A stretch of 64,000 bases of DNA from Campylobacter showae CSUNSWCD (GTDB taxonomy: Bacteria > Campylobacterota > Campylobacteria > Campylobacterales > Campylobacteraceae): NCBI RefSeq assembly GCF_000313615.1, contig NZ_AMZQ01000007.1, positions 62,001-126,000 of the forward strand. The letters are read 5' to 3'. The position numbers and the translations under genes are program-made. Shown here piece after piece: positions 24,638 through 28,709 of the stretch (positions are counted from its first letter, which is position 1; each line of letters starts with the position of its first letter). The notes beneath the pieces are model-generated. The model was not told the origin of the DNA. It saw only the letters and a program-made list of their open reading frames with translations, and ran no database searches.

Positions 24638-26311
24638 TTGAGAAGCGATATAATCAAAAAAGGCTACACAAGAGCCCCACACCGCTCACTTTTACGTGCG
24701 ACTGGGTTAAAAGACGAGGACTTTACCAAGCCATTTATCGGCGTTGCTAACAGCTTTATAGAGATTATCCCTGGGCACTTTTTCTTAAACAAATACGCTC
24801 AAATTTTAAAAGATGAAATTCGCAAAAATGGCTGTGTGCCGTTTGAATTTAACTGCATAGGCGTGGATGATGGCATCGCGATGGGGCACTCTGGGATGCT
24901 ATATAGCTTGCCAAGCCGCGAGATCATCGCAAACTCTATAGAGACCGTAATGAACGCGCACGCACTTGACGCGCTTGTTTGTATGCCAAACTGTGACAAG
25001 ATCGTCCCTGGCATGGTTATGGGCGCTTTAAGGGTCAATGTCCCGACCATTTTTGTAAGCGGTGGTCCGATGAAAAAAGGCCACACAAAGGACGGCAGGC
25101 CGATAGATCTTGCGACTGCGTTTGAGGCGGTTGGCAAATTTGAGACCAAAGAGATAGACGAAGCCGAGCTAAGAGATATCGAGTGCAATGCATGTCCGAG
25201 TGGGGGCAGCTGTAGCGGTATGTTTACGGCAAACTCTATGAACACACTTTGTGAGGCGATGGGTATAGCGCTTTCTGGCAACGGTACTATCCTAGCACTT
25301 ACCCCAGAGCGCGAGGAGCTCATCAGGCAGGCTGCTCGCAGGATCTGTCAGATCGCCCTTGATGAGAAATTTAAGATAAGAAACATACTAAATGGAAAGG
25401 CGATCCGCAACGCACTTGTCGTTGATATGGCGATGGGTGGCAGCAGCAACACCGTCCTTCACATGCTAGCTATCTCAAGAGAGGCTGGGGTAAATTTAGA
25501 CATAAAAGAGCTAAATAAGATCAGTCAAAACATCGCCCATATCGCTAAGATCAGCCCGAGCTTGCCAAACGTACACATGGAGGATATCGGCAGGGCTGGT
25601 GGCATGAATGCGGTGATAAAAGAAATTTCACGCAGAGATAACGGCATGCTAAGCTTAGACAACCTAACAGTTAGCGGCGAAACTTTGGGCGAGCGCGTAC
25701 AGGCTAGTGACATCAAAGACGAAAGCGTCATCCACAAGGTGGAAAATGCCTATTCGCAGGTTGGCGGACTTGCCATTTTGTTTGGAAATTTAGCCGAGCA
25801 AGGCTGTGTCATCAAGACGGCTGGCATCGTTGGCGAGCGTAAATTTAGCGGTAAAGCGGTCTGCTTTAACTCACAAGATGAAGCCATAGCTGGCATCTCA
25901 AGCGGTAAAGTCGATAAAGGCGACGTAGTCGTCATCCGCTACGAAGGCCCACGCGGAGGCCCTGGCATGCAAGAGATGCTAAGCCCTACTTCACTCATCA
26001 TGGGGCGTGGCCTTGGCGCAGACGTAGCGCTCATCACAGATGGTCGCTTTAGTGGGGCGACAAGAGGTCTAAGTATCGGCCACGTAAGCCCAGAAGCTGC
26101 TGAAGGCGGCATGATAGGCCTGCTACAAGATGGCGACATCATCGATATAGACGTCGATAAATACGAGATAAACGTTCGCCTAAGCGATGAGGAGATCGCC
26201 GAGCGCAGGGCTAAATTTAAACCAGTAGATAAGGCACTAACCTCTCGCTGGCTAAGGCAGTATCAAAAGCTAGTCACAAACGCAAGCAATGGAGCGATAT
26301 TAGAGGTGTAA
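24638..26311 (+). CDS. ilvD: Dihydroxy-acid dehydratase
   Basis: This iron-sulfur enzyme makes the 2-oxo acids for valine, isoleucine and pantothenate synthesis. The 557-residue protein has the Fe-S cysteines ([36 protein letters not shown]) and the [20 protein letters not shown] signature. The start is TTG at 24638, preceded by AAAAGGATCAAA. The family start [17 protein letters not shown] follows immediately. A hairpin terminator follows, separating it from the R-M cassette. Confidence 0.96.
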
Positions 26312-26315
26312 ATAA

Positions 26316-26340
26316 CTAAAGAGCTTTTGCTCTTTAGATT
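26316..26340 (+). terminator. Terminator after ilvD
   Basis: CTAAAGAGC-TTTT-GCTCTTTAG is a perfect 9-bp hairpin at 26316-26337, four bases after the ilvD stop. Confidence 0.6.
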
Positions 26341-26357
26341 AAATTTAAAGGATATTT

Positions 26358-27321
26358 TTGAAACATAAATTTACTTATATAGACCTTTTTGCAGGAGTTG
26401 GTGGCTTCTCTTTTGCACTTAAGTCAATGGGGGGGGGTAGCAAGCTGTTTATATGCTAGTGAAATAGATAAATTTGCATCCATCACATATACACTAAATC
26501 ACAACCTTACTCCGTTTGGTGATATAACAAAACAAGAGACAAAAGATAAAATCCCAAAAAATTTTGATATTTTGTGCGGTGGTTTCCCTTGTCAAGCTTT
26601 TTCGATCGCTGGTTATCAAAAAGGTTTTGATGATGCCCGAGGAACGCTGTTTTTTGAAATTTTATCAATCGCAAAAAAACATAAGCCTAAAGTCTTATTT
26701 TTAGAAAATGTCAAAAATTTAAAAAATCACGACAACGGCAACACTTTTAAAGTAATAAAAAATTCTCTTGAAAGCATAGGCTACTATGTTTATAGCGATG
26801 TTTTAAATTCTGCTACACACGCAAATATCCCACAAAATAGAGAGAGAATTTTTATAGTTGCATTTAATAAAAACAAAGTTAAAAACTATGAAAAATTTAC
26901 ATTTCCAAAGCCTATAAAACTAACAAAAAAGATAAAAGAGATCATTTTAAAAGAAAAACAGGATGATTATTTTTACTACACACCAGAGAAAAACAAATTT
27001 TATGCCGAGTTAAATGACGCTATAAAAAATCAAGACACATTGTATCAATGGCGTAGGCACTACGTTAGAGAAAACAAGTCAAATTTGTGTCCAACTTTAA
27101 CCGCAAATATGGGAACAGGTGGGCATAACGTCCCTTTACTAAGAGATAAATTTGGCATAAGAAAACTTACTCCGATCGAGTGTTTTAAATTTCAAGGATT
27201 TCAAAACATTATTTTGCCAGATATTGCTATATCAAAACTTTATATACAAGCTGGAAATAGCGTAACAATACCTCTTATAAAAAGAATAGCAGAACAAATT
27301 ATAAAGGTCTTAGATGATTAA
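26358..27321 (+). CDS. Phase-variable DNA (cytosine-5) methyltransferase, OFF in this sequence
   Basis: Translation from TTG 26358 (after AAAGGA) gives KHKFTYIDLFAGVGGF, the m5C motif I, and then enters nine G residues at 26429-26437. In the present length the frame ends at TAG soon after (KLFIC stop). Deleting one G (8 G) joins it to the long frame carrying SEIDKFASITY, motif IV GGFPCQAFSIAG with the catalytic Cys, ENVKNLKNH, QNRERIFIVAF and the C-terminal motif X GNSVTIPLIKRIAEQI. The full protein would be about 320 residues, normal for a HhaI-like enzyme. The 3' end overlaps the nuclease gene by 8 bases. The long frame seems to start at 26389, but the residues before the G-tract there are the wrong frame. 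The gene is low-GC, so probably acquired. Confidence 0.9.
26429..26437 (+). repeat. Homopolymeric G9 tract (phase-variation switch)
   Basis: Nine consecutive G residues inside the methyltransferase ORF. Slipped-strand changes set the frame: 8 or 11 G would give full-length protein, 9 gives early termination. Confidence 0.9.
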
Positions 27322-28432
27322 TTTTGCCGACAAAGATATAAAAGACAATGGAGAGTATTTAAATTTGTTATCCATTATGGCTTCACTATCTAGACTTTTT
27401 AGTGAAAGCGAAACTCCTTTTATATATTACAGATTTGCCGAAAATGTATTTTGTAAATGTTTTAATGCTCATAATTTGAGCAGAAGTGATACAGCATTTG
27501 ATGCCAAAATAGACACTCTTGGCATTGGACTAAAAACTTTTACATTCACTTCTAATTCTTCTTTAGAAAAAGTTGCAGAGTTTAATGCTTTATCAAGAGA
27601 GTTTGATGATCTAAATCCTGACGAGTTAGCATTTAAACTATCAAATTTTAGAAATGACCGCATAAATTTAGCCAAACGAACATATGAAATAGACGATGCC
27701 TTGTATCATATCGTGGCTAGAACGAATGGTAAGCTTGTATTTTTTGAAACCGACTACGATGAAATAGATATTTCAAATTTACAAGATATCAAAAGTACAA
27801 AAAGTGGCATAAAATTTAGTGACGGTATAAACGAGTATAGCTTTAACAGATCAAAAAGCACACTTTTAAGAAATTTTAGCATTCCAGATAATGCATACAA
27901 AAAAGACATAGAGATTATTGATGATGTCTATTCTTTACTCTCAAAGCTAGGTCAGATAAACTTAACACCTTCTAAAAGAGCAGGGATTGACTACATTGTA
28001 TTGCCTCTTTATTCTATAAAAAATGGTAGAAAAATTATTTTTGAAAGAAGTAGTTTAAATCAATGGAATGCTGGTGGTAGAGCAAGAGACATCAATGAAA
28101 TGTATATAAATTATCCAGCTAAAGCAAGAGAAATAAACGAAAACTTTTTTCCACCAAGGGATCAAGAATTTATCCTTCAAACACCTACTGGAGAAAATTT
28201 ACGTGCAAAAATTTGTCAAGATAATAATAAAGCCTTAATGACAAATCCAAATAAGGCTATCAGCGACTGGCTTTTGAGAAAAGTTTTAAAGCTTGACGAG
28301 GGAGAACTAGCAACTTATGAAAGACTGGAAATTTTAGGATTTGATAGTGTTATTGTTTATAAACAAGATAACCTTTATAGCATAGATATAATGCCACTTG
28401 GTTCATATGAGAAATTTATAAATTTGTTTTAA
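27314..28432 (+). CDS. Putative type II restriction endonuclease with B3-like C-terminal domain
   Basis: The 372-residue protein is encoded directly after the m5C methyltransferase with an 8-base overlap, the usual sign of an R-M pair. Residues 58-76 (SDTAFDAKIDTLGIGLKTF) contain D63-A-K65 and K74, which could be a PD-(D/E)XK-type metal site. The C-terminal ~130 residues (GGRARDINEMYI; FFPPRDQEFILQTPTGENLRAK; ALMTNPNKAISDWLLR; FDSVIVYK) resemble the B3-like DNA-binding domain of NgoFVII/BfiI-type nucleases. No phospholipase D motif is seen. The frame is intact and A+T-rich. The recognition site is unknown. Confidence 0.7.
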   Translation: MINFADKDIKDNGEYLNLLSIMASLSRLFSESETPFIYYRFAENVFCKCFNAHNLSRSDTAFDAKIDTLGIGLKTFTFTSNSSLEKVAEFNALSREFDDLNPDELAFKLSNFRNDRINLAKRTYEIDDALYHIVARTNGKLVFFETDYDEIDISNLQDIKSTKSGIKFSDGINEYSFNRSKSTLLRNFSIPDNAYKKDIEIIDDVYSLLSKLGQINLTPSKRAGIDYIVLPLYSIKNGRKIIFERSSLNQWNAGGRARDINEMYINYPAKAREINENFFPPRDQEFILQTPTGENLRAKICQDNNKALMTNPNKAISDWLLRKVLKLDEGELATYERLEILGFDSVIVYKQDNLYSIDIMPLGSYEKFINLF

Positions 28433-28433
28433 A

Positions 28434-28460
28434 ACCAGCTAGAAACTAGCTGGTAAATTT
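28434..28460 (+). terminator. Terminator of the R-M cassette
   Basis: ACCAGCTAG-AAA-CTAGCTGGT at 28434-28454 is a perfect 9-bp hairpin immediately after the nuclease stop. Confidence 0.7.
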
Positions 28461-28690
28461 ACTTTGCTCCGTGCCAAAGAAGGCGGTTTTTGCCTAGCTT
28501 TGTGTCGATACTCTCTTTTATAATGGAGCAGATATACTCTTTTGAAAGCCCTATGGCTTCCTCTAGGCTCTTGCCCTTTGCTAGGTAGCAAGCAAGTGCC
28601 GTTGAGAAAGTGCAACCAGTCCCACTCATCACAAGCGGACTAGCAAGCGGGGTTTTGCTAAATTCTAGCGCGATTTTTATCGTTAAAAGC
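28459..28690 (-). pseudogene. thiD: C-terminal stump of ThiD (HMP/HMP-phosphate kinase)
   Basis: The minus-strand frame ends with a recognisable ThiD C-terminus: SGTGCTFSTALACYLAKGKSLEEA, containing the anion-hole and catalytic-Cys GTGC motif, followed by KEYICSIIKESI. A full ThiD is about 265 residues; only about 70 are present, and no upstream frame continues it. The first few codons (MRLLTIKIALEF) may belong to ThiD or to junction sequence. The stump abuts the R-M cassette, suggesting the gene was cut when the cassette was inserted or exchanged. Confidence 0.75.
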
Positions 28691-28709
28691 CTCAAATTTA
28701 CTTTGGCTA

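Follow-up and report, generated by a model that had tools for sequence, protein, structure and literature searches.

A nine-G tract in a stand-alone m5C methyltransferase gene next to an intact nuclease gene in Campylobacter showae: a candidate phase-variable Type II restriction-modification unit

The window, that is, the whole 64 kb stretch of the Campylobacter showae CSUNSWCD genome (G000) that was analysed, carries a restriction-modification (R-M) unit in which an m5C methyltransferase gene is broken by a run of nine G and is followed by a complete nuclease gene. We hold with considerable confidence that the tract is a maintained switch lying in its OFF setting, and not a product of decay. 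Furthermore, we hypothesize, giving the proposal about an even chance, that both genes constitute a phase-variable Type II R-M unit whose OFF frame also lowers the downstream nuclease, mainly via polarity on the mRNA. The unit comprises the following features:

26316-26337, + strand: terminator-like hairpin that follows ilvD and borders the R-M unit upstream (hairpin scan; same sequence in a second species, G014)
26358-26459, + strand: 5' piece of the m5C methyltransferase gene, with TTG start and motif I (FAGVGG), 33 codons and then TAG (direct reading)
26429-26437, + strand: nine-G homopolymer, the putative phase-variation tract, located in the motif I to motif II loop
26438-27321, + strand: 3' piece of the methyltransferase gene, with motifs IV-X and the target recognition domain, frame open to TAA
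27303-27307, + strand: AAAGG, ribosome-site-like sequence for the nuclease, inside the 3' end of the methyltransferase gene
27314-28432, + strand: Type II restriction endonuclease-type gene, 372 aa, with a B3-like C-terminal domain of the NgoFVII type
28434-28454, + strand: terminator-like hairpin closing the R-M unit (hairpin scan; same sequence in G014)

The methyltransferase frame starting at TTG 26358, a codon preceded by AAAGGA (ribosome-site-like by direct reading), is LKHKFTYIDLFAGVGGFSFALKSMGG, followed by the nine G at 26429-26437; it contains the AdoMet motif FAGVGG and closes at TAG 26457-26459, 33 codons after the start. Past the tract, the rest of the enzyme lies in a frame that differs from the motif-I frame by one base and ends at TAA 27319-27321, and from 26438 on this frame has a single, terminal stop, against 28 and 25 in the other two. 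The 3' piece matches PF00145 at profile positions 22 to 324 (E 1.2e-76) and TIGR00675 at positions 20 to 329. Direct reading, frame stops and profiles thus confirm the claim of the sequence-only reading that an m5C methyltransferase is split by a 9-G tract, with motif I set out of frame relative to motifs IV-X. No other G or C run of at least six bases is found in the window, and a 9-G run is expected by chance only 0.02 times in dinucleotide shuffles (present in 2 of 100). The gene therefore carries the homopolymer hallmark of a simple-sequence-repeat phase-variable gene, a long tract in coding sequence beyond chance.

The same tract with its 3' flank was found in two of the 48 genus genomes searched, G000 and a second species of the genus (G014); these are the only tract carriers, both have 9 G and are OFF, and no open-frame length occurs among them. 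Relatives of the nuclease are present in three of the 48 genomes, G000, G014 and G037. In G014 the methyltransferase-nuclease pair occupies the same place, between ilvD and thiD, and the nuclease is 93% identical, while in G037 the nuclease is 43% identical, its gene comes before the methyltransferase gene, and the latter is intact and has no tract. Likewise, among the 26 m5C methyltransferase matches returned from the genus at E 1e-40 or better, only the G000 and G014 copies have a G or C run of at least seven bases in the gene. Between G000 and G014 the unit is equal in length and shows no further frame break. A Nei-Gojobori count on this one pair of genomes gave dN/dS values of 0.061 for the 3' part of the methyltransferase gene (29 synonymous differences, 8 nonsynonymous), 0.07 for the 3' end of ilvD, and 0.128 for the nuclease (47 synonymous and 28 nonsynonymous), twice the methyltransferase value. 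None of the four differences in the 5' piece alters the protein read in the motif-I frame, whereas each would change an amino acid in the other frame; given that a fraction of 0.227 of random changes would be silent, such an outcome has a probability of 0.0027. Since coding constraint is seen on both sides of the tract in this genome pair, with silent changes in the 5' piece, the joined methyltransferase is, or recently was, used. Judging from these substitutions, both methyltransferase and nuclease are under purifying selection between the two species, and decay of the methyltransferase seems unlikely.

Beyond the genus, the nuclease family was matched in 20 of 398 sampled genomes of the order. 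Nineteen loci were examined, namely 16 of these 20 matches, G037 and two Brachyspira-labelled contigs; G000 itself and the weak partial matches G086, G168 and G310 were left out of the fetched loci. Besides G014, 14 of the other 18 loci have a close methyltransferase of complete length, and in all 14 of these relatives the loop from motif I to motif II was found in one frame, with no G or C run of at least seven bases. The four loci outside the loop test are L090 (contig end), L098 and L099 (no close methyltransferase) and L101, which is decayed and has a 7-G run outside the methyltransferase-nuclease pair. Several of the 14 relatives have incomplete nuclease genes (L097, at a contig end, L100 and L102). 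The comparison of the locus in related genomes, which had been suggested earlier, hence shows nine G in G014 as well and an unbroken, tract-less gene in the 14 other relatives tested. G334, one of the genomes without the tract, has GGGGG at the homologous position, a possible seed for it.

The methyltransferase lies upstream of the nuclease in 14 of the 15 loci with a close neighbour, G037 being the reversed one. With starts placed where judged likeliest, 9 of 13 relatives have a nuclease gene that begins 1-11 nt inside the end of the methyltransferase gene, and the other four (L004, L005, L093 and L096) show no overlap; L097 could not be assigned. Because the overlap is common in relatives without a tract, it is a family-wide trait and not a device of the switch, and a role as a special coupling device was rejected; accordingly, the earlier suggestion that the overlap ties nuclease translation to that of the methyltransferase did not hold. 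An RNA hairpin hiding the nuclease start was also unsupported, as the predicted RNA structure at this start is nothing unusual (z 0.02 over 100 nt and -1.12 over 60 nt).

The nuclease gene (27314-28432) encodes 372 aa with no internal stop and its start overlaps the methyltransferase stop by 8 nt, so that the sequence-only reading was right in describing it as intact and overlapping. A near end-to-end match to the PADLOC profile REase_II PDLC03479 (E 6.6e-138) identifies the nuclease by family, and a stand-alone methyltransferase thus adjoins a stand-alone nuclease as in Type II (IIP-like) R-M systems. The B3-like C-terminal DNA-binding domain PF20731 is present in all 12 family members scanned, and in Foldseek the nuclease model aligned with the B3 domain of R.NgoAVII (E 1.9e-06). 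With the complete model, the first hit was the full R.NgoAVII chain (E 8.4e-08, rmsd 20, TM 0.29), a match that seems to rest on the B3 part. Public names of six plasmid relatives read 'PLD domain-containing' in five cases and 'NgoFVII family' in the sixth; nevertheless, assignment to the PLD enzymes was rejected, as the PLD profile PF09565 was matched in none of the 48 genus genomes and is absent from the Pfam matches of the 12 family members, and no HXK stands at an invariant position of the 12-member alignment. When modelled alone (pLDDT 89.8), the N-domain had no match in the PDB at E 0.001 or better; its best nuclease rows, the Holliday junction resolvase Hjc (E 0.09) and HinP1I (E 0.23), are both weak, and a PD-(D/E)XK fold is only a suggestion from this model. 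Viral structure models gave three matches at E below 0.001, two of which have a readable entry, in both cases an uncharacterized protein, and in viral contigs a single-protein query gave no match and an alignment query gave seven loci, six of them used in the structure alignments. The family therefore pairs a B3-like C-domain with an N-domain that has neither a PLD profile match nor a significant match to a solved structure, a combination perhaps undescribed among restriction enzymes.

As to the target, methyltransferases of plasmid origin are 55.5-56.3% identical to that of the window over the 3' part, and in three of the four records the neighbouring nuclease is annotated as Bsp6I family, the neighbour in the fourth (a B. 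subtilis plasmid) being a hypothetical protein. The recognition domain shares 51 to 53 of 82 positions with the three Bsp6I-paired enzymes and 47 of 82 with the plasmid enzyme of the fourth record. Bsp6I cuts GCNGC, and the probable target of the window methyltransferase, as predicted from this resemblance, is GCNGC or a subset of it. The window contains 425 GCNGC sites against 391 expected, a ratio in which site avoidance was not informative as a clue to specificity, and by proportion about 14,000 sites are estimated genome-wide. With 425 such sites in the window, a free nuclease should be lethal. In Mycoplasma agalactiae, an enzyme labelled Bsp6IM is reported to methylate GCNGC, with the modification detected as m4C where m5C was predicted (PMC9465063).

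An intact nuclease next to a silent protector should kill the cell, yet two assembled genomes show this arrangement. The earlier expectation that an OFF methyltransferase with an ON nuclease would lead to self-cutting stands as far as m5C enzymes go, since the other two in the genome have unrelated recognition domains. One way out that had been offered, a nuclease restricted to modified sites, is unlikely: intact methyltransferase and nuclease genes adjoin in relatives, and cutting of methylated DNA was rejected on this basis. In contrast, a frame-coupled switch of both activities still appears likely, although through polarity and not through the overlap itself. We propose that the methyltransferase became a contingency gene through a slippery G tract, being OFF at nine G, and that the nuclease is probably on the same transcript, as both genes lie between the two hairpins and a scan of 26200-28700 found no convincing promoter between these (10 promoter-like sites against 9.7 by chance; terminator-like hairpins in the region number 4 against 1.5). 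In the OFF frame, translation would cover only 33 codons, leaving some 850 nt of the mRNA untranslated; Rho-dependent polarity, together with fewer ribosomes reaching the overlapping start, would then result in less nuclease, allowing the unmethylated cell to survive. A slip back to the open frame would restore both methyltransferase and nuclease, and the population would be a mix of restricting and non-restricting cells.

Rho is encoded in the genome. A Rut-like, C-rich and G-poor patch after the OFF stop was discarded as an adaptation, because the tract-less G334 has a stronger one. Work on the PvuII operon reports that shifting the frame of the overlapping gene upstream cut expression of a nuclease-lacZ fusion about fivefold; transcriptional polarity was invoked, and the overlap and hairpins were found to have no role when tested, but an in-frame insertion reduced the mRNA to a similar extent as the frameshift, and the case for polarity there is not clean (PMC2997769). 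In Helicobacter pylori J99-R3, a Type I methyltransferase gene and a specificity gene are described as silent though intact, perhaps owing to a frameshift in the upstream gene (PMC3936762). Against polarity, the nuclease start is served by an AAAGG ribosome site of its own and is not hidden by RNA structure, a promoter-like + strand match at 26524-26552, inside the methyltransferase gene, could feed the nuclease, and a fivefold reduction of nuclease might still leave enough to kill an unmethylated cell. The broader claim, that both enzymes of a Type II system are switched by one tract located in the separate methyltransferase gene, the OFF frame silencing a lethal independent nuclease via polarity, is tentative, and we place it somewhat below an even chance. 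If true, phase variation would be safe even with cutter and protector as different proteins, and with each slip from OFF to ON an unmethylated cell would go through the establishment of an R-M system anew.

Survival in the OFF setting may also be explained by leakiness. Slippage of RNA polymerase or of the ribosome on the nine G would yield a minority of joined methyltransferase, which would protect because the nuclease of the same transcript is scarce, and the dose would be tuned instead of switched. That both assembled genomes have 9 G beside an intact nuclease gene, and that the two frames are only one base apart at the tract, would suit this explanation; nonetheless, the slippage is hypothetical, and restarts would not help, as the scan found no ribosome site at any of the five start codons that the 3' frame has beyond the tract. 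In the assembled sequence this frame is also open 5' of the tract, back to TTG 26389, from which a gene finder may call a 310-aa methyltransferase, but such a start would give a protein without motif I; on the whole, leakiness is unlikely, if worth keeping in view. We regard as rather improbable that the nuclease is weak, conditional or inactive, through low expression, a missing partner or lost activity, and the state of the methyltransferase consequently not vital. An ATPase partner is required by some of the enzymes that carry such a B3-like domain (CglI and NgoAVII, of which BceSIV is a homologue; PMC4267653), no gene for such a partner lies between the two hairpins, and the dN/dS of the nuclease is the higher of the pair. 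On the other hand, the gene has no stop, the window protein is included in the family-invariant columns of the 12-member alignment (by construction), and the partner-dependent enzymes have a PLD nuclease domain, whose profile is unmatched in the window nuclease.

The two other explanations touch the reality of the OFF state and its consequences. Homopolymers are error-prone and G000 is a draft of 23 contigs, so the true tract might be in frame, or else the gene might be a dying pseudogene; yet nine G are found in two assemblies, and the equal unit length, the lack of any other frame break and the strong constraint make both variants very improbable. It is equally hard to believe, and marginally more so, that another methyltransferase protects the same sites and makes that of the window dispensable. 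The genome does have two further m5C methyltransferases, one of them among genes read as prophage-like, and a prophage enzyme that acts on several targets has been described (PMC3459991). Their recognition domains, however, are identical to that of the window at only 16 of 80 and 17 of 76 positions, where a Bsp6I-paired enzyme reaches 53 of 82, and one of the two methyltransferases adjoins an EcoRII-C type nuclease gene.

Judged by its neighbourhood in related genomes, the unit has the look of a cassette that occupies a variable site. The ilvD-thiD region was inspected in seven other genus genomes, among the closest by ilvD: in G017, G022 and G026 only 36-49 bp separate the ilvD and thiD alignments, with no insert, G019 and G006 have other inserts downstream of ilvD, and in G016 and G028 no thiD match was found within 8 kb downstream of ilvD. 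The insert of G019 (L125 3791-6622) is a GmrSD_N / AAA / weakly PLD-like set in the ilvD-thiD gap, and that of G006 (L127 2234-3067) is an unknown gene with a 44-bp duplicate of the ilvD end next to it; the gap looks like a variable defence site. The thiD adjoining the R-M unit looks truncated, with only 28433-28664 (232 bases) aligning to the full, 244-aa thiD of G014.

Across the whole G000 genome there are 12 G or C runs of at least eight bases, three of them in R-M genes, the window methyltransferase included. A nine-base C run (G on the gene strand) at G000:C12:753-761 lies in an hsdS-type gene (378 aa; L118 201-1337, minus strand) that is open across the run and adjoins an hsdM gene, being a candidate second phase-variable R-M gene. 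Nine G at G000:C13:36431-36439 lie in a gene for a 1059-aa fusion of N6-methylase and specificity parts (L121 782-3961), again open across the run, and this tract shares the flanks AAT-G9-TAGC with that of the window. Two 13-G runs, at G000:C1:137716-137728 and G000:C14:2465-2477, are outside any ORF of at least 60 aa; the latter stands 37 bp before a small ORF and is a possible promoter-type switch. At G000:C8:187307-188167 (L054), an HTH-m5C methyltransferase was read beside an EcoRII-C type nuclease and apparent fragments of a recombinase gene; 16 of the 48 genus genomes have equally strong matches, which are probably orthologues.

Several known systems share part of this organization. The Bsp6I-type R-M systems (GCNGC) of Gram-positive plasmids resemble the unit in the methyltransferase (~56% identity over the 3' part, and 51-53 of 82 in the recognition domain), but their nuclease is annotated as Bsp6I family and precedes the methyltransferase, unlike here. 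NgoFVII, NgoAVII, CglI and BceSIV have a C-terminal B3-like DNA-binding domain, as the window nuclease does, and CglI and NgoAVII are likewise reported to have an m5C methyltransferase partner (PMC4267653); however, their N-domain is a PLD domain (HXK), whereas the window family has no PLD profile match and the unit no ATPase partner. The C and R genes of the PvuII operon also present an overlapping upstream gene in which a frameshift lowers the downstream nuclease, although in that case the frameshift was introduced by engineering, in a gene that encodes a regulator (PMC2997769).

Among phase-variable systems, a CpG m5C methyltransferase of M. agalactiae likewise carries a poly(G) tract, which is described as varying within 6-11 G and truncating the product, but the methyltransferase table of that paper marks no nuclease for it (PMC9465063). 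The Campylobacter phasome study reports nine phase-variable homology groups with R-M functions, of which the Type IIG cj0031 is the most prevalent, and its main text has no word starting with 'cytosine' (PMC6321876); the window group may be among these nine. Among the titles and abstract openings listed by literature searches, supplements and most subscription journals excepted, no tract-switched separate methyltransferase with an independent nuclease was found. The Type IIG system Cj0031 of Campylobacter jejuni is likewise driven ON and OFF by a tract, and its ON cells are reported to restrict phage (PMC4889913, PMC6321876); cutting and methylating reside there in one polypeptide and the OFF setting removes both, whereas in the window unit the nuclease is separate and intact. 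In the cj0031 (PMC4889913) and H. pylori (PMC3936762) systems, as described, the parts are fused or are subunits. In the phase-variable R-M systems compared, as far as their reports describe them, cutting and protection are joined within a single protein or complex (Type IIG, IIB, I and III), or no nuclease is marked. A tract in a separate methyltransferase next to an intact, independent nuclease is the dangerous case, and survival in its OFF setting poses a sharp and testable question on addiction, polarity and population-level phage defence.
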